A stretch of DNA of 64,000 nucleotides. Source: Cloacibacterium normanense (GTDB lineage Bacteria; Bacteroidota; Bacteroidia; Flavobacteriales; Weeksellaceae). The translations under genes were made by a program, and so were the position numbers. Location: positions 1,612,001 to 1,676,000 of the forward strand of contig NZ_CP034157.1 in NCBI RefSeq assembly GCF_003860565.1, written 5' to 3'. The notes below the pieces were generated by a model, which saw only the letters and a list, made by a program, of their open reading frames with translations, did not search any database and was not told the DNA's origin. Shown piece by piece: positions 33,851-64,000 of this stretch; position 1 is the stretch's first letter, and each line of letters opens with the position of its first letter.

Positions 33851-34833
33851 ACCTGTTGTGCATTTAGGAATTAAGAAAGAAAAAGATTGTCCATTTGATT
33901 AAAAAATCGTATATTTAGTTGATTACCAAGTCATTAAATATATGAACAATCTCATTCAAAATTACAATATTATTTTAAAAGAATTGACAAATACTTGTAA
34001 ACATATAACTACAACCAAGCAAATTAGGCTTCCAAAAATGTCTGATTTGGAACTTGTGGCACTTAATGTTACTGCGGAATACATGTCAATTAACTCTGAA
34101 TTACAGCTGTTTAGATGTATTTCAGGAACCGATTTGGACGGAAAAATTGAAAGAAGTGTCTATAATAAAAGAAAGAGAAAACTTTTACCTTACATTGAAA
34201 AGATCAGAGAAACTTTAAGCAACAATTTTTCGGATTTTACCGATGTATTTATTGTAGATTCAACGCCAATTGAAATATGCAAAATTAGTAGAGCAAATCG
34301 CTCGGCAATCTGCGCAACAGATGAAATTAAACCTTCTTTTGGATATTGTGCTGCACAGAAGTCAAGATATTTTGGTTATAAACTTCATGCAGTTTGCGAC
34401 AAGAATGGAATCTTTCATTCTTTCGATTTTTCACCTGCAAACGTTCATGATGTTAATTACCTTAATGACATTAAAGAAAATTTTCAGAATTGCCTGTTAA
34501 TAGGAGATAGAGGATATATCAGCAAAGAAATTCAAATGGATTTATTCAACTATTCTAGGATAAATCTTTCAGTCCCAATGCGCAAGAACCAGCATAATTT
34601 TGTGGAGTTTTCAAGAACAAAATCTAAAATCAGAAAACGTATTGAGACCAATATCTCGCAATTGTGCGGACAGTTCACAATCAACACCAACTTTGCAAAA
34701 ACATTTCAAGGTTTAGCAACAAGAATAGTATCGAAAATAACTTCTTTTACGATGATTCAATACCTAAATTTCTTCGTATTTAAGAGAAGTTTGAACAAAT
34801 TAAAAATTAATTTGTGCTAAATGCACAATAGGT
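33851..34833 (+). mobile_element. Complete IS982-family insertion sequence
   Basis: The 983-bp element has terminal inverted repeats (ACCTGTTGTGCATTTAG left, its complement with one mismatch right) and a 6-bp target duplication TCATTT (33845-33850 and 34834-34839). It carries one transposase gene. The second copy at 63408 is identical over the visible part, so transposition is recent. Confidence 0.92.
33942..34820 (+). CDS. IS982 family transposase
   Basis: The protein has 292 residues. DDE-type catalytic core: FIVDSTPIEI (first Asp), LIGDRGYIS (second Asp), and a later Glu in the FVEF or KRIETN region. The length and KxxYFGYKLHAVCD motif are typical of IS982. It appears intact. The stop lies 13 bases inside the right end. 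Confidence 0.92.
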   Translation: MNNLIQNYNIILKELTNTCKHITTTKQIRLPKMSDLELVALNVTAEYMSINSELQLFRCISGTDLDGKIERSVYNKRKRKLLPYIEKIRETLSNNFSDFTDVFIVDSTPIEICKISRANRSAICATDEIKPSFGYCAAQKSRYFGYKLHAVCDKNGIFHSFDFSPANVHDVNYLNDIKENFQNCLLIGDRGYISKEIQMDLFNYSRINLSVPMRKNQHNFVEFSRTKSKIRKRIETNISQLCGQFTINTNFAKTFQGLATRIVSKITSFTMIQYLNFFVFKRSLNKLKINLC

Positions 34834-52996: not shown

Positions 52997-54811
52997 TTAT
53001 AATTTTTCAGAATAAAATTTATGTACACAATGTAAATTATCGTACATTATAAAGCACTTTTCTTTATAATCATCTCCATAAGGGCATTTCTCAATTCTAA
53101 GCTGTTTTATAGTATAAAATTCAATATTATTAACTATTTCATCACCGATTTTGTCTTTTTCTTCTAAGTTGTCAAAATTTAGTATGTTAATATTTACATC
53201 TTTATGACCAGTGTAAAATAATGATACAACAATTATTTTTTCAACCCTCTCGAAAAACTTTTTTTCTCTAGTTTCTTTACCCACTAATTTTCTAATAGTT
53301 CTACCATCGTTTACAACGTCTGTAATTAATAAAACTTGTCTATATTTACCTTTGGAATTATCAAAATTTAGTTTGTTTTCAAAATCATTATGGTCTTCCC
53401 ACCTATATGAATATGGAAGGTAGGTATAGGGAATAGAATATTTTATTGATGTTTTACTAGATATAATATTACCTTCGTATCCTAAACCGATTATTAAATC
53501 TGTATTTTTAACTAAATTCATTTTCTCTAAGACATCAATTATCGAATTTTTGATGAAATACAAATCTTCCTTATTCTCTAAAAGCTTTGCTGTATCAATC
53601 CAATTATGAGCACGCGAAGTTTCACTCCAATGAAAATGACCTTGATGGAATAATTTTTTTTCCTTGATAATATTGTATAGTTTATTTTGAATATCCTTGT
53701 TTTCATATTTTACAAGAGCTGTACTTTTCTGATAAACTAAGTTAGAAACAGTAGTTTCAATTTCATCATTTTCAGGAAGCTGGTCAATGGGGTTTACAGA
53801 AATAAGATTTTCCAATTTTCGAAATTCAAATGAATTTTTTTCTAAGCCTTTTATTTCTTCAGAATTAATTTTAATCCAATTTCCGAAATTTGATTCAGTA
53901 TTACCATTTACTTTATGCAATACATAAATATTATTTAATAATGATAAACAATTATTAGAATCAATAATTTCATAAATTTTGAAAGAAGCATCAATAGAGT
54001 TTTTACTACTAAATACACCACTATCACTTATTATAATACCTTCTCTATTTGCAAGATTTTTAGAATTATGTGTATGCTCATTACCATTTAAGATACATTT
54101 AATATTGAATCTTTCAAAAAGAGCAATTAGATCCTTTTTATTTTCTTTTTCCCACTGTCCAAAATGGGAATCTTCATGCTCTCCTTCAAGATTGTGATGA
54201 AAACATAATATTAATTCTTCGTAAGGAAAAGTTTTTTTGATTTCTTTTAATTCTTCCTCTAAAATATCTATTGGTATATAACCATGGCCACCATTTTGAT
54301 TAACTTTATAATTTGAATTGAGAGCTAACAAAACGATATTCCCAATAGTAATAGTGTCAAAAATTATTTTGTCAAATTCAAAATCTATTTTTTTAAATTT
54401 TTTGTAAAAATTATTAAAATTTTTAAATTTTATTTTATTTAAAAATTCAAGTGAATCTGTAGCATTATCTTTTCTAAGTTCTTCTTTTATAGAATCTCTA
54501 TGAGCATCATGATCACCAGGAATTAATAATAATCTATCAGAATCAATTTCTAACTCTGTTAATATATGAGAGATAATTCTTTCTCCTTCTTCAAATTCAA
54601 TTTGTTCAGCAATATTGGTAATGTCTCCTGTAATGACTAAATATTTATTTCTACATGTATAAGCTTTTATTTTATCGAGAAATTGATTAATAAAACTTAA
54701 ATTTTGAGTGCTAGGATTACAAGTCAAATATGTATCTGAATTTGCATATCCAAATGTCCTACTTTGATCAGAAATATGTAAATCAGAAATATGTATAATT
54801 ATATCATTCAT
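52997..54811 (-). CDS. Metallophosphoesterase fused to phosphoribosyltransferase-like domain
   Basis: The protein has 604 residues. The N-terminal calcineurin-like phosphoesterase (1-270) has all metal motifs: D10/H12 in ISDLHIS, GD at 62-63, GDHD at 99-102, HH at 205-206, and GNEHTH at 243-248. The C-terminal part (about 385-600) is PRTase-like: LIIGLGYEGNII and the PRPP loop VLLITDVVNDGRTI (493-506). It could hydrolyse a phosphodiester or phosphate and handle a ribosyl-phosphate ligand. It overlaps the 54804 gene by 8 bases; last gene of the operon. Confidence 0.82.
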   Translation of the reverse strand: MNDIIIHISDLHISDQSRTFGYANSDTYLTCNPSTQNLSFINQFLDKIKAYTCRNKYLVITGDITNIAEQIEFEEGERIISHILTELEIDSDRLLLIPGDHDAHRDSIKEELRKDNATDSLEFLNKIKFKNFNNFYKKFKKIDFEFDKIIFDTITIGNIVLLALNSNYKVNQNGGHGYIPIDILEEELKEIKKTFPYEELILCFHHNLEGEHEDSHFGQWEKENKKDLIALFERFNIKCILNGNEHTHNSKNLANREGIIISDSGVFSSKNSIDASFKIYEIIDSNNCLSLLNNIYVLHKVNGNTESNFGNWIKINSEEIKGLEKNSFEFRKLENLISVNPIDQLPENDEIETTVSNLVYQKSTALVKYENKDIQNKLYNIIKEKKLFHQGHFHWSETSRAHNWIDTAKLLENKEDLYFIKNSIIDVLEKMNLVKNTDLIIGLGYEGNIISSKTSIKYSIPYTYLPYSYRWEDHNDFENKLNFDNSKGKYRQVLLITDVVNDGRTIRKLVGKETREKKFFERVEKIIVVSLFYTGHKDVNINILNFDNLEEKDKIGDEIVNNIEFYTIKQLRIEKCPYGDDYKEKCFIMYDNLHCVHKFYSEKL

Positions 54812-55901
54812 TATCTTCTTTTTTAGACTTTAAATTAGTAGATATATAATATCCTAATTCTTCATTATTGTCTCTATCAATAGAAAAAATGGCAATTGTC
54901 GCATCTCTTCTATTAATGTCTTTCTTTTTTAAAGTTTCTGTTTTAATAAGTGAAACGTTTCCTAAATATTTTCCTCCTAAGAATTCGATTATATTCTTTA
55001 CAATTTTAACTTCTGTACCTAAACAAACTAAATCGGAAACGACAATATAATTTCTATTTTCTATAATATTCTTATTTAATGAATTATAAATACGATTTAT
55101 CGGGCCAATTTTATCAAGAATTAAAATGTCCAGTTTCAAAAGATTCGACAATATTGAAGTGATATATGAACTATTTAAGCTCTGACAAACCAAAATTGGA
55201 GGATTATATTCTTGCAAATTACCTTCACCATAAAAAGGAATAGGCCCATTTTCTCTCCATTCTTTAAGTATTTTTAGAGACAATTTATAAATTGAGTAGA
55301 TACAAAGAGCTTTCTGTTCAGAGATAAATTTCTTAATATTAATATATGAATCTAAATAAACATAAGACGATGTATGAGGTTCACCATGTTTTTCTATATA
55401 AGGTTTTAATTCTTTAATAAACTCTTTTTCAAACAATCCATCTATTTTAAAACCATCCTCAAAAAAATTAATTGACGAATCCTCAAAAAGATAAAATTTT
55501 TTGAAACCAGTCTTTTTTCGAGGTTTTAAAGTTCCCTTATCAAAGAACAAAATATCTGTTCTAACATTATTTGAATTATTCATTGAATCAAATCCAAATT
55601 TCACAATCAATTCTTCTGTGATGTTTAATAACGCAATTTTAAACCCTTCCTTTTTAAGTTGAGTAAAGTATCTGTTTATGTTAGGTTGTTCTCCTTCAAT
55701 GTGCTTTAAGTCAAATGCTATATTCAACTGAACCTTACCACTCTTTTCAATATCATCAATGACTCTCTCAATTGTTATGGATTGTAATCTATCACAAAAT
55801 ATACCATTATTATTCTCTTCAATGAAATTTGATGTAATAACTTCTTCACTATGTAAATTATAATAAATGAAGTTTTCTGCATTTAATTTTGAAATTATCA
55901 T
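54804..55901 (-). CDS. STAS-like/phosphoribosyltransferase-like protein
   Basis: The protein has 365 residues. Residues 40-105 (SITIERVIDDIEKSGKVQLN, IAFDLKHI, FKIALLNITEEL) alternate beta/alpha as in STAS domains. Residues 230-320 resemble a PRTase, with the loop YIVVSDLVCLGTEVKIV (285-301) in place of the usual D-D-x-x-x-T-G; the altered acidic pair suggests ligand binding more than catalysis. It overlaps its downstream partner by 8 bases and lies 6 bases after the GHKL gene. Confidence 0.65.
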   Translation of the reverse strand: MIISKLNAENFIYYNLHSEEVITSNFIEENNNGIFCDRLQSITIERVIDDIEKSGKVQLNIAFDLKHIEGEQPNINRYFTQLKKEGFKIALLNITEELIVKFGFDSMNNSNNVRTDILFFDKGTLKPRKKTGFKKFYLFEDSSINFFEDGFKIDGLFEKEFIKELKPYIEKHGEPHTSSYVYLDSYINIKKFISEQKALCIYSIYKLSLKILKEWRENGPIPFYGEGNLQEYNPPILVCQSLNSSYITSILSNLLKLDILILDKIGPINRIYNSLNKNIIENRNYIVVSDLVCLGTEVKIVKNIIEFLGGKYLGNVSLIKTETLKKKDINRRDATIAIFSIDRDNNEELGYYISTNLKSKKEDNE

Positions 55902-55907
55902 AGTTTA

Positions 55908-57101
55908 CTAGTTTGGAATTTCAACTTCAATGTGAACTCCTTTAAATTTTACGTTGTAAAATCTAATAGATGAGAATTTAGTTTCTTCGGAGTAATACTT
56001 AACTATTGCTTTAATTACCTTTACAAAATGCTCTGTTAATATACTTTTAGAATTCAATATTGTTTTTTCATATTCACTTTTTGTGAGTTTACCTAATTCA
56101 TATAAATTGTGTATTTCCAATATTTTATCACGTAGTTCATTTAGAGAAGTTATGTATTTGAAAATTCTATTAGATATAATTATTTGACAATTATTTGTGT
56201 GTAACCTAAAGTATCCATTACTCTTAAGTACCACATTTAACATCAAATCAAATAGTCCTTTTCTTTCCTTTAATGAAGAAAAATATAGAATTTCAAAAAT
56301 TTCTATTAAATTTTCAACAAAATACTTATTTAAGGTACTATTTAATTCTAACTTAATAGAATTTTCAAGCTCATTTTTTTCATAATAAAAAGGGAAATTT
56401 TGTTTTTTCGATAAAGAATTTTTAAATCCAATACCATTATCAGAAATTGAGAATTTCGTCTGATATTTATCTACAAACATCATGGCATATGTTGTAGATT
56501 GAGAATGTATTACACCATTAGTAATTAATTCTGAAAGTATATTAATATATTCATTGTGATTTTTGACTGTATTTTCATTATCGTATAATAGGTCATGAAA
56601 ATGAGTTTGTACATTGTAAGATACAATTGAATTTACTTTATCTCTTAGTAAAATTTCATTTGATTGTTTAAAATCTATATTAGGAAAATCCTTTTTCCTA
56701 TAAGCTCTAATTATATGTTCTTTACGTATTTCGTTTCCTAGAAATGCACCAAGATAATTTGAATTATAAATAAGAATATCATTTTCTTTTGCTATTCTAA
56801 AAAATCCCTCTAGATATAAAAATTCTAAAACTTTAATTGTAGCATGATTATTATTCAAATAAAGCTCTAAAGGTTTCTTATGGAATTTACTTAATTGCTC
56901 TATTATACTTAGTAATAAAGGGGTTGATATTGGATCAATTCTGTAAGTTGAATTAAAAATATCAGTATCTCCTTTCTGAAAAAGTAGAAACTTAATCTCA
57001 TCGGTCTTATTACCCCTATAGAATTCAGCTAATTTTGGTAAAAATTCAGTATAAAAAACTAAAGGTGTGAAATTAACTCCATCGTCTAAAATTGGTATCA
57101 T
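55908..57101 (-). CDS. GHKL (HATPase) protein with N-terminal STAS-like region
   Basis: The protein has 397 residues. The ATP-binding Bergerat fold shows the N-box SELITNGVIHS (E191, N195) and G1 box SISDNGIGF (D221, G223, G225), followed by a long helical insert and a C-terminal beta strand (FKGVHIEVEI). Residues 55-112 look STAS-like. The pairing of HATPase and STAS recalls anti-sigma/anti-anti-sigma switches, but a His-phosphoacceptor domain is absent. First gene of the three-gene operon; a repeat copy precedes it. Confidence 0.75.
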   Translation of the reverse strand: MIPILDDGVNFTPLVFYTEFLPKLAEFYRGNKTDEIKFLLFQKGDTDIFNSTYRIDPISTPLLLSIIEQLSKFHKKPLELYLNNNHATIKVLEFLYLEGFFRIAKENDILIYNSNYLGAFLGNEIRKEHIIRAYRKKDFPNIDFKQSNEILLRDKVNSIVSYNVQTHFHDLLYDNENTVKNHNEYINILSELITNGVIHSQSTTYAMMFVDKYQTKFSISDNGIGFKNSLSKKQNFPFYYEKNELENSIKLELNSTLNKYFVENLIEIFEILYFSSLKERKGLFDLMLNVVLKSNGYFRLHTNNCQIIISNRIFKYITSLNELRDKILEIHNLYELGKLTKSEYEKTILNSKSILTEHFVKVIKAIVKYYSEETKFSSIRFYNVKFKGVHIEVEIPN

Positions 57102-59741: not shown

Positions 59742-61433
59742 TTAATTTTTCAAACCAAACTTATAATAATCATCTGGAAGTGCTTTTTCATTAAATTTTA
59801 ATTTGCCTAACCAATAAAGTTTATCAAAATCACCTTGTTCATATGGAGAAAAGGTTAAATGGATATCTTCAGCTTCAGCTAATTTTTTAAAGTTGGATGG
59901 ATTTTGTAAATAGCAAGCACAAACATCAAGTTCATCAATCGAATACATTCTATCGTGCATTTGTCTTCTACAATCTAAAAAGTCAAAAAAATTATTGATA
60001 TGATTTTTCGATTTTAATTGTAACGTTTTTAAAAATACTTCTAAATCATCAATATAAACCGACCAAGGATAATCTATATCGTCTTCCTTCTCTAACAATA
60101 AACCTAAATCAGTTTGTATACAGCCAAATCTTTCTAATGTTACAACAATTGAAAATACATTATTGATTTCAGAAGGATTAATAGCTTGTAGTACTTTTTT
60201 ACGATAATTTTTCAAATGAAAAACTTCATCAGAATAAAAGAAATCCTCTACTCTTTTACATTGATCAAAGCCATATTGAATAGAATTTTCAAAATCTGAT
60301 TTCAATCTGTCAATAGCCTTATCTACGTCCCTAAAAGGCTCACGTAGTTTTGAAGCTTTAACTTCTATAATAATAGCATTTCCCTTATATATGATTAAAA
60401 AATCTTGCTCGTAATTATCAATTACATAATAATTCTCAAAAAAATTGGAATGTTTACTGGCAAAGAAAGATTTAAACATGTCACTAACCTTATTTTCTAA
60501 AGTTTTTTCTCTGTGCTTCCTTAATTTAACATTGGTATTATTATCATTAAATAGATGTGTATAAAGAATTTTATAAATAGCAATAGGTAATTGTTTACCA
60601 TATAAGCTTAAATAATTACCATTAGAAAGTTTCAAAAACGGTGTCTTTTCAAATATACTTTCAGCAGTATAATATCTTATAGAATTGTCAGATACTGGCA
60701 CTATTGAAACTAATTTTAGAAGTTTATCAACTTTTTCAGCATCAAGCCTATGATACAAATCAGATGCTGAAAATATTAAATATGCATATGTTTTATAATT
60801 AAATGAATCTAATGCATCTTGAATTTTCTTTGGCATTAAATCATATGAAGCAGAGACACTCATTTTGCCACCTTGAATTCTATCATTAAAATCTGCAAAT
60901 TCTTTAGTAAACATAAACTCCATAGTTTGCTTCCCACGAATTAAAGAAATTAATTCAATCTCTTTACAAGCTTCAATAAGAAAATCAATATCAAACCCAA
61001 AATCTGAAGTTATCTTTTCATCAAAAGGAGAAAACACCCTTCTTAATTTCTCTAAATCCTGTTCAACATAGCTTAGCACACCATTATCAAAATGATTCCT
61101 AACAGCCATTTCGTGAATTACGGATTCTTTAGTATAATTATTTAAATCTTGTGGGTAAATATTTTTTTTTATCTCATCAAGTTTATCTGCAATTAGATGT
61201 AATCCATCAAATGGAAACTCAAACTTTTCCTTTCCTTTTTTGTCAGAAAATGCATTCAATGAAATTAAGTATAGAAAATCTTTAAGTTTAGAACCAAATC
61301 TATTTATTCCTATATCAGCTGCAGGGTCAATATTTTTTTTAATAAAAAAAGCTAAAGATCCTGCAAAGCTTTCGGTATCATATTGAGATACTAAATCTTG
61401 AAGTTCGTTTATTTTGTTTTCAATATCCTTCAT
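59742..61433 (-). CDS. PD-(D/E)XK nuclease-like protein, partner of OLD gene
   Basis: The protein has 563 residues. The C-terminal part holds a restriction-endonuclease-like core: E313 in TLENKVSDMF, D344 in YEQDFLIIY, and E357/K359 in NAIIIEVKASKL. The N-terminal 300 residues are helical and unassigned. It lies 99 bases downstream of the OLD-family gene on the same strand and is likely expressed with it. Its nuclease role is inferred from the motif. Confidence 0.7.
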   Translation of the reverse strand: MKDIENKINELQDLVSQYDTESFAGSLAFFIKKNIDPAADIGINRFGSKLKDFLYLISLNAFSDKKGKEKFEFPFDGLHLIADKLDEIKKNIYPQDLNNYTKESVIHEMAVRNHFDNGVLSYVEQDLEKLRRVFSPFDEKITSDFGFDIDFLIEACKEIELISLIRGKQTMEFMFTKEFADFNDRIQGGKMSVSASYDLMPKKIQDALDSFNYKTYAYLIFSASDLYHRLDAEKVDKLLKLVSIVPVSDNSIRYYTAESIFEKTPFLKLSNGNYLSLYGKQLPIAIYKILYTHLFNDNNTNVKLRKHREKTLENKVSDMFKSFFASKHSNFFENYYVIDNYEQDFLIIYKGNAIIIEVKASKLREPFRDVDKAIDRLKSDFENSIQYGFDQCKRVEDFFYSDEVFHLKNYRKKVLQAINPSEINNVFSIVVTLERFGCIQTDLGLLLEKEDDIDYPWSVYIDDLEVFLKTLQLKSKNHINNFFDFLDCRRQMHDRMYSIDELDVCACYLQNPSNFKKLAEAEDIHLTFSPYEQGDFDKLYWLGKLKFNEKALPDDYYKFGLKN

Positions 61434-61532
61434 ATATTTCTCATTAGCTTTTTCAGGCTACATCTGTGTAAATGAAAAGGAGTTATTTGTATGAATATCT
61501 CCTTTATCATTAATTAAAAAAAGTGATAATAT

Positions 61533-63407
61533 TTATGCAGATAAAAAAGCATTAAAAAGTTTAGTCCATTTGTCTACATATTCTTTCGGTATATCATCGG
61601 ATTTTTTGTTTTTCAATTGAGCTTTTGCAGTCATTGATATCCCAACTTTCCAACACTTTTCCAATACGATTCCATTAGCCTTAGCAAATGTTTCGATTTG
61701 AGACACTACAGGAATTTTTTTATTGTAATTATCTTCAAAATCTACTTCATCTAAAGAATTGAAAAGCCTGTCAACACCTTTCTTTATCAATGAAAACGGA
61801 ATCAAATCTTCCACTTCTGATTTTTCAATTTCGGTAAACTCTTTAACATCAAGTATTCTATTTTCCAATCCTTGGTACAAACCCGATAATAATTTTTTCT
61901 TCGCATCTTCACCACTCTTATCAGAATCGATAATCAAAAAAGGTATATCATCTGCTTTACTCGAAATCATACTAACAACACCTGGGACACCTTTTACACC
62001 ACCTGATGGGACAAATACAATTTCTTGTTCTGGAGCAATCAGTTTTTCTCTAATCAAAAATCCTTTAATTGCATTAAGATAAAATTGGTCGGATGGCCCC
62101 TCAACTACAATAGCTTGGCAACCTTGTAATAAAACATCTGAGACACTTAATCCTAAAGCTGCGTGAACTGCATATATAGATTTTTCGTTCAGAGCATCAC
62201 TACCTTGCCTTAAATTACTTGAAGCAACTGTATAGCCATCCTTATCCATAAAAACTACCCTGCATCTGTCTATATTAGAAGTATCAACAATAAATGGAGA
62301 ATGTGTTGTATTAATTATCTGATTGCCTTGTGATAAATTATCAAAAAATACAGCAAGATCTTTTTGTGCTAAAGGGTGTAAAGTTAGTCCTGCTTCATCA
62401 AGCAATAAAATTGCCCCTTTGTGTTGTTCTTGGCTTTCAACTAGAAAGATTAAGTAAAAACTGATAAACCATTGAAGCCCTGTACTACGAAGTTCTAATG
62501 CTACTTCGTCAGTTCTAATGCTATCAGATACCCAAATACGAAAATAGTCGCCATCTGCTTCAAATCTAAATTTATATTCTCCCTGTTTCCACCATTCTCT
62601 AAACTTCTTCGTTAAATCACCTGAGGCTGATTGCAAAAGAATACTTCTTTCCTCTTTATCATTTTCGGCTTGTCTAATTTCCTCTGCTGTCGGTTGTGAA
62701 TTTCCGTTTCTACCATTTCTAAGCATTGCCATTTCTTTTGGGTCTTGTCCTAGTTCCAAAATTTCTTTTGGATCTAATTTCACAAATTCAAAAAGCACTC
62801 TTAATGTCCTAACTTGTTCTTCGTTTATATCTATACCATCCACAGATTTCCCGTCTAACCACTTAATTACATTTGGAAGATATATCTTTGACGATAAATT
62901 TCCATAATTTGAATAATAAACAAATGATGGTAGTTCTGCAAGAATAGCTTTCTCTAAATCGACATCTTTAAGTGGTACAATAACATCTTCTTCTATTGGT
63001 TCTTCGCCATCCTCAACTTCTTTGGCTACTTTTTCTGTTTTCGTTGATTGTGGTTTTCCACTTGGAAATTCAAATGTGTAACTCCCATCATAAAAACGCG
63101 TAACAGTTATTAATTTATCTCCTTGTAAGCTACATCCAACTTCAGTTTCAATATTCTTTATAGATTCTTCCTCAAGCTCAAATTCTGCCGTAATAAATTT
63201 CACTTCTTCAGGAGTTTTTCGATAAGTACTTAGTTTAGAAACCGGCATATCGTGTAAAATGTCAATATTTCCCTCTCGTGCTGGATTTATCTTCCATAAA
63301 GCTAAAAGTAAGTTAGACTTTCCTGCTTCGTTAATTCCTACTAACGTTGTCACATTATCGCATTCAATCCACCCGCTATCAAGAATGGACCGAAAATTTT
63401 CTACTTT
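61533..63407 (-). pseudogene. OLD-family ATPase with TOPRIM nuclease, 5' end interrupted by IS982
   Basis: From the GTG at 63353 (607 codons incl. stop) it reads Walker A GINEAGKSN (6-14), Walker B GAILLLDEAGL (313-323), then C-terminal TOPRIM: E418 in IVVEGPSD and D476/D478 in IIDSDKSG. Upstream codons VENFRSILDSGWIECDN continue the usual first strand of the family up to 63407, where IS982 sequence begins. No ATG/GTG/TTG precedes this in frame. The rest of the 5' end must lie beyond the IS, outside the window. The product is likely inactive or a shortened form. Confidence 0.85.
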
Positions 63408-64000
63408 ACCTGTTGTGCATTTAGGAATTAAGAAAGAAAAAGATTGTCCATTTGATTAAAAAATCGTATATTTAGTTGATTACCAAGTCATTAAATATAT
63501 GAACAATCTCATTCAAAATTACAATATTATTTTAAAAGAATTGACAAATACTTGTAAACATATAACTACAACCAAGCAAATTAGGCTTCCAAAAATGTCT
63601 GATTTGGAACTTGTGGCACTTAATGTTACTGCGGAATACATGTCAATTAACTCTGAATTACAGCTGTTTAGATGTATTTCAGGAACCGATTTGGACGGAA
63701 AAATTGAAAGAAGTGTCTATAATAAAAGAAAGAGAAAACTTTTACCTTACATTGAAAAGATCAGAGAAACTTTAAGCAACAATTTTTCGGATTTTACCGA
63801 TGTATTTATTGTAGATTCAACGCCAATTGAAATATGCAAAATTAGTAGAGCAAATCGCTCGGCAATCTGCGCAACAGATGAAATTAAACCTTCTTTTGGA
63901 TATTGTGCTGCACAGAAGTCAAGATATTTTGGTTATAAACTTCATGCAGTTTGCGACAAGAATGGAATCTTTCATTCTTTCGATTTTTCACCTGCAAACG
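63408..64000 (+). mobile_element. IS982 family element, second copy, cut by the window end
   Basis: It starts with the inverted repeat ACCTGTTGTGCATTTAG and is identical to 33851-34443 over all visible bases. It is inserted near the 5' end of the OLD-family gene, in the opposite orientation to it. Confidence 0.93.
63499..64000 (+). CDS. IS982 family transposase, partial (3' end outside window)
   Basis: The ATG at 63499 corresponds to the start at 33942 in the complete copy. The first 167 codons are visible and identical, including the first catalytic Asp region FIVDSTPIE. Running on past the window end. Confidence 0.9.
   Translation, partial: MNNLIQNYNIILKELTNTCKHITTTKQIRLPKMSDLELVALNVTAEYMSINSELQLFRCISGTDLDGKIERSVYNKRKRKLLPYIEKIRETLSNNFSDFTDVFIVDSTPIEICKISRANRSAICATDEIKPSFGYCAAQKSRYFGYKLHAVCDKNGIFHSFDFSPAN

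Follow-up and report, generated by a model that had tools for sequence, protein, structure and literature searches.

Gene Content of the Locus

The window, a 64,000-nucleotide stretch of the Cloacibacterium normanense chromosome, contains near its end an OLD-family ATPase/TOPRIM gene and, 99 bp downstream on the same minus strand, the gene for a putative PD-(D/E)XK nuclease, just where the original prediction had placed them. Two different nuclease folds, OLD/TOPRIM and what appears to be NERD, lie side by side, as it had also stated. The features are as follows.

59742–61433, minus strand: predicted NERD-family PD-(D/E)XK nuclease gene, 563 aa, intact (Pfam, alignment); the N-terminal ~300 aa have no recognized fold
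60240–60500, minus strand: predicted NERD/PD-(D/E)XK domain, residues 312–398 (E313, D344, E357, K359, Q391); PF08378 match in 16/16 members, invariant residues
61434–61532, minus strand: 99-bp gap between OLD and nuclease with a terminator-like 12-bp hairpin, a possible attenuator; hairpin also present in Myroides
61533–63407, minus strand: OLD-family (class 1-like) ABC ATPase/TOPRIM gene (Pfam, PADLOC, PDB match), cut by an insertion sequence (IS) at codon 7
63400–63407, no strand: TCTACTTT, an 8-bp target-site duplication present here in a single copy; its other copy lies past the window end
63408–64000, plus strand: IS element of 983 bp with a DDE_Tnp_1 transposase, running on to position 64390 outside the window

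The OLD protein of the window matches Pfam AAA_15 (E = 6.4e-20) and, in a C-terminal TOPRIM domain, Toprim (E = 0.0018). Since its best PADLOC match is Old (E = 6.6e-26), and the intact Myroides homologue has a single PDB match, 6P74, a class 1 OLD (E = 9.9e-10), we regard the protein as class 1-like rather than as a GajA. Position 63407, given as the end of the gene in the original prediction, is the border of the 983-bp IS, which has 17-bp inverted repeats and is flanked by the 8-bp duplication. The start codon and first codons of OLD are on the far side of the element, outside the window; the OLD gene is therefore interrupted here, and the nuclease gene is intact. Reconstruction of the empty, IS-free site yields the full 630-aa OLD protein, and an intact relative exists in Myroides. 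The genome holds five copies of the IS, all identical (those at window positions 33851–34833 and at three other sites are 100% identical to the copy in OLD), which points to recent movement of the element. The insertion has probably also deprived the nuclease gene of its usual upstream promoter. The 12-bp hairpin in the gap, not flagged by a terminator scan of those 99 bp, may limit read-through from OLD into the nuclease.

The surroundings agree with the defense context that had been envisaged for the pair. Just past the window and the IS (L004, 6330–13480), one strand carries genes for a Dcm-type methyltransferase, a HATPase, a helicase-like Z1 protein, a DUF4420 protein (a putative PD-(D/E)XK enzyme), and MTaX1; this operon looks restriction-like and gives the pair a defense-island setting. 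On the other side, at window positions 52997–57101 on the minus strand, we observed three co-directional genes that look like a separate defense-like unit. They encode a 397-aa GHKL-like ATPase, a protein of 365 aa, and a 604-aa metallophosphoesterase with a phosphoribosyltransferase-like C terminus, for which the NCBIfam DS9_1 anti-phage phosphoesterase model scores 62 bits and a pyrE-like model 21 bits, both under the cut-off.

Neither Gabija nor PARIS accounts for the pair. Membership in Gabija was rejected on finding no GajB UvrD-like helicase, whether inside the window or up to 19 kb from the pair, and no GajA in the 2.76-Mb chromosome; a decayed Gabija was rejected as well, no remnant of GajA or GajB being found within the same 19 kb. 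PARIS, also rejected, comprises an AriA ATPase and an AriB TOPRIM effector, whereas here a single chain holds both ATPase and TOPRIM and the partner is a NERD nuclease.

The Nuclease Family

The match of the window nuclease to the NERD model (PF08378, residues 312–398) is weak, with E = 0.0051 and a score under the gathering threshold. The same model matches all 16 family members, the best at E = 7.2e-7, and in an alignment of 16 sequences spanning 25–93% identity the residues E313, D344, E357, K359, and Q391 are invariant. The invariance of the first four indicates that the E313...D344...E357xK359 core recognized in the original prediction did not arise by chance, and from the Pfam matches and the conserved residues we infer that it belongs to a PD-(D/E)XK/NERD fold, as had been claimed. 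The gene is under purifying selection (dN/dS 0.07–0.17 across the family, 0.10–0.17 within the window subfamily), which, together with the invariant catalytic residues, suggests that a working nuclease has been kept.

Beyond this domain little is recognizable. A PDB profile search with the family gave chance matches only and no structural relative, and Pfam found neither a helicase nor any other known domain in the 563-aa protein. CARF-PDDEXK models match the nuclease weakly (E ~0.001–0.002), and no signaling-nucleotide sensor was identified. Neither PADLOC nor NCBIfam has a model that describes the family, and a literature search, which had most subscription journals outside its reach, found no description of the module. 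The family is, in short, rare and undescribed.

Distribution and Gene Neighborhoods

A scan of genome contigs returned two close homologues of the nuclease, in Chryseobacterium echinoideorum (L005, 93%) and Myroides sp. 1354 (L006, 86%). Whole-genome searches of about 2000 genomes, in samples several of which overlap, place the gene in approximately 1–3% of genomes, nearly all Bacteroidota. Another copy is on an Exiguobacterium plasmid; further whole-genome sampling of the class added no new loci, and homologues were found neither in viral contigs nor in phages. The evidence on gene context comes from about 14 loci, some of them related, with neighbors named by PADLOC or Pfam. One copy is at a contig edge (L055) and another is a 248-aa fragment (L015). 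Distant NERD proteins (L016, L017, L020, L021, and L026), which have the catalytic motif or match in part, were left out of the context argument because they are longer and too divergent.

The Myroides locus has the order GajA-GajB-OLD-nuclease, with Gabija complete, and the Chryseobacterium locus the order GajA-GajB-nuclease, with no OLD gene (Gabija here: PADLOC PDLC00079/00135). Elsewhere the nuclease follows a divergent Gabija (L052 and L053; PDLC00072/00127), Wadjet I (JetABCD; L014), a type I R-M system with a RhuM/Fic protein (L054), or a KAP NTPase (L049 and L050); it is likewise preceded by IetAS at L051, and at L048 (copy a) it stands upstream, not downstream, of SIR2-HerA. It is usually the last gene of a complete but variable defense operon, separated by 10–99 bp from the co-directional partner gene upstream (the window and eight other loci). 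Solitary copies number at least three (L047, L048b, and L019, the Exiguobacterium plasmid).

These neighborhoods bear directly on the central claim of the original prediction, that OLD and the nuclease form a dedicated two-protein defense system distinct from Gabija and PARIS, a reading that we now consider highly improbable. The expectation that the genes would be conserved together held to the extent of one intact pair, in Myroides, and failed elsewhere, no pair being found outside the window and Myroides. In these two instances the genes share their adjacency, the size of the gap, and a common promoter region, and dS is similar for both genes (0.55 and 0.67), as co-inheritance would give. 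However, there are two instances only, and the Myroides pair comes after Gabija. At all other loci the nuclease occurs without OLD, either alone or next to one of the other systems named above, and OLD relatives occur without the nuclease: those on plasmids, at ~50% identity, are solo and have no NERD partner.

Partner Switching

The nuclease appears to have been exchanged between operons as a single ORF: in three lineages DNA homology ends at this ORF and the adjacent system differs. Between the window and the Chryseobacterium locus, DNA identity is 94% over the nuclease ORF and absent around it; for a core recombinase gene, presumed to be orthologous, identity between the same two genomes is 69%. 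At L051 and L052 the nuclease and the flanks of an insertion hotspot align, the cargo before the nuclease is IetAS at L051 and Gabija at L052, and homology resumes ~20 bp inside the nuclease ORF. At L048 and L050 homology covers the nuclease ORF alone, the neighbor being SIR2-HerA at L048 and a KAP NTPase at L050. Where the same neighbors recur, the rates differ: between L005 and L006, dS is 0.73 for the nuclease, 1.55 for GajB, and saturated for GajA, and a nuclease value so far below that of the adjoining GajAB genes indicates that genes of one operon have had different histories. In the nuclease tree the copies from Gabija loci do not form one group, and two to three changes of label are needed. 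The hotspot itself is common to L051, L052, and L053, from three Flavobacteriaceae-like genomes, where the cargo is IetAS or Gabija and the nuclease and both flanks are kept.

We looked in the protein for a trace of these changes of partner. In the window/L005 comparison residues 1–300 are 95% identical and the remainder 90%, despite different partners; for L051 and L052, which also differ in partner, the values are 58% and 60%. The two halves are about equally conserved across partners, which speaks against a partner-specific docking domain, and a partner-specific N-terminal domain, of which we saw no sign, was rejected as a candidate. This even conservation favors a nuclease that is independent of its partner, whether accessory or autonomous.

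It also weighs against another possible role. PrrC, which resides in type I R-M loci, offers a guard-type analogue, and the nuclease might likewise act as a guard or back-up effector that a phage sets off by inhibiting the defense system of its host. Repeated hitch-hiking with unrelated systems, type I R-M included, would suit such a function. Yet one protein would then guard many unrelated complexes, and its N-terminal domain should have diverged with its partners, which the similar identities of the two halves do not suggest; we think the idea improbable.

The remaining alternative is that the protein is an autonomous single-gene defense nuclease, Shedu-like in outline, whose place at the end of operons matters only for expression and co-selection. 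The solitary copies, one of them on a plasmid, the near-identical proteins with different partners in the window and L005, and an ORF that travels alone all agree with this account. On the other hand, most full-length copies lie less than 100 bp from a complete defense system, and the nuclease matches no PADLOC or Pfam defense nuclease family above chance level. On balance this alternative seems to us a possible but somewhat unlikely one.

Comparison with Known Systems

Gabija (GajA, a class 2 OLD, with the UvrD helicase GajB) resembles the window pair in its OLD ATPase/TOPRIM chemistry, and it accompanies the module repeatedly, a complete Gabija standing directly before it at L005 and L006 and a divergent one at L052 and L053. 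It differs in that the window OLD is class 1-like and its partner a predicted NERD nuclease instead of a helicase. With class 1 OLD proteins (P2 Old; TsOLD, 6P74) the points in common are the 630-aa length of the intact form, the sole PDB match to 6P74, and the solo plasmid relatives. They have been described as single genes (PMC10568477), as those plasmid relatives are, whereas OLD is followed by a nuclease gene both here and in Myroides.

Among single-protein systems, Shedu (SduA) is one protein with a PD-(D/E)XK nuclease domain. The likeness is in how it might work only, as the domain here is NERD and no Shedu model is among the Pfam or PADLOC matches of the 16 members. NERD domains do occur in other defense proteins, namely Nhi-like proteins and Mokosh type I (PMC10952713); the Nhi-like proteins are NERD-helicase fusions, unlike the 563-aa protein, which has no helicase. 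There is precedent for accessory nucleases common to several systems, with NucC in CBASS and type III CRISPR and RmuC in Shield and DISARM (PMC10952713). The parallel is that of one nuclease beside several immune systems; the nuclease family is a different one.

A Proposed Portable Accessory Nuclease

We suggest, as an interpretation to which we would give an even chance, that the nuclease works independently of its partner as a portable anti-mobile-element module, accessory or self-sufficient, that travels with defense operons. Such a module would join a PD-(D/E)XK (NERD) nuclease to an N-terminal domain of ~300 aa and would be expressed together with its partner while forming no dedicated complex with it. 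The nuclease would most likely degrade or process invading DNA, possibly where cleavage by the partner or the entry of a phage exposes ends or nicks, and so might serve an anti-phage or anti-plasmid role. In the window, the partner would have been the class 1-like OLD nuclease, later interrupted by the IS, with the nuclease left intact. Several observations count against this interpretation: the sample of about 14 loci is small, the solitary copies have no partner, at L048a the nuclease stands before SIR2-HerA, and a terminator-like hairpin lies between OLD and the nuclease.

A role at DNA ends is plausible by analogy. Gabija is believed to target those ends of injected DNA on which RecBCD cannot load, and Shedu is described as sensing DNA ends and nicking linear DNA (PMC12407980). 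Some partners may not supply such a substrate, and adjacency to defense genes is not function, as defense genes cluster anyway. IetAS, an AAA+ ATPase with a protease, is not known to cut DNA; a shared DNA-end intermediate is thus not guaranteed, and IetAS fits a DNA-end model poorly.

We offer more tentatively, and with some doubt, the broader notion that one nuclease family is a general booster for Gabija, OLD, Wadjet, IetAS, type I R-M, KAP NTPase, and SIR2-HerA systems, acting on a common intermediate and moving among operons as a single-gene cassette that changes partners. If the module does work across partners, it would be a transferable accessory nuclease common to bacterial immune systems, and detection tools would be underestimating both the size and the modularity of the defense unit. 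The window pair also offers a direct test of whether a class 1 OLD acts alone, a question already raised (PMC10568477).

Any such contribution would be an optional one, since most Gabija loci of the same genus do not have the module: of 11 genomes in one genus sample that have a related GajA, 1 also carries the nuclease, and at six inspected Gabija loci other genes lie downstream. Downstream of the Myroides Gabija-OLD-nuclease array (L006, 9388–11166) we observed an anti-phage dCTP deaminase gene. In a same-genus genome (G001; L002/L003) a related nuclease gene survives as a broken remnant, with 41–47% identity and several stops, from which it appears that the family decays in this genus.
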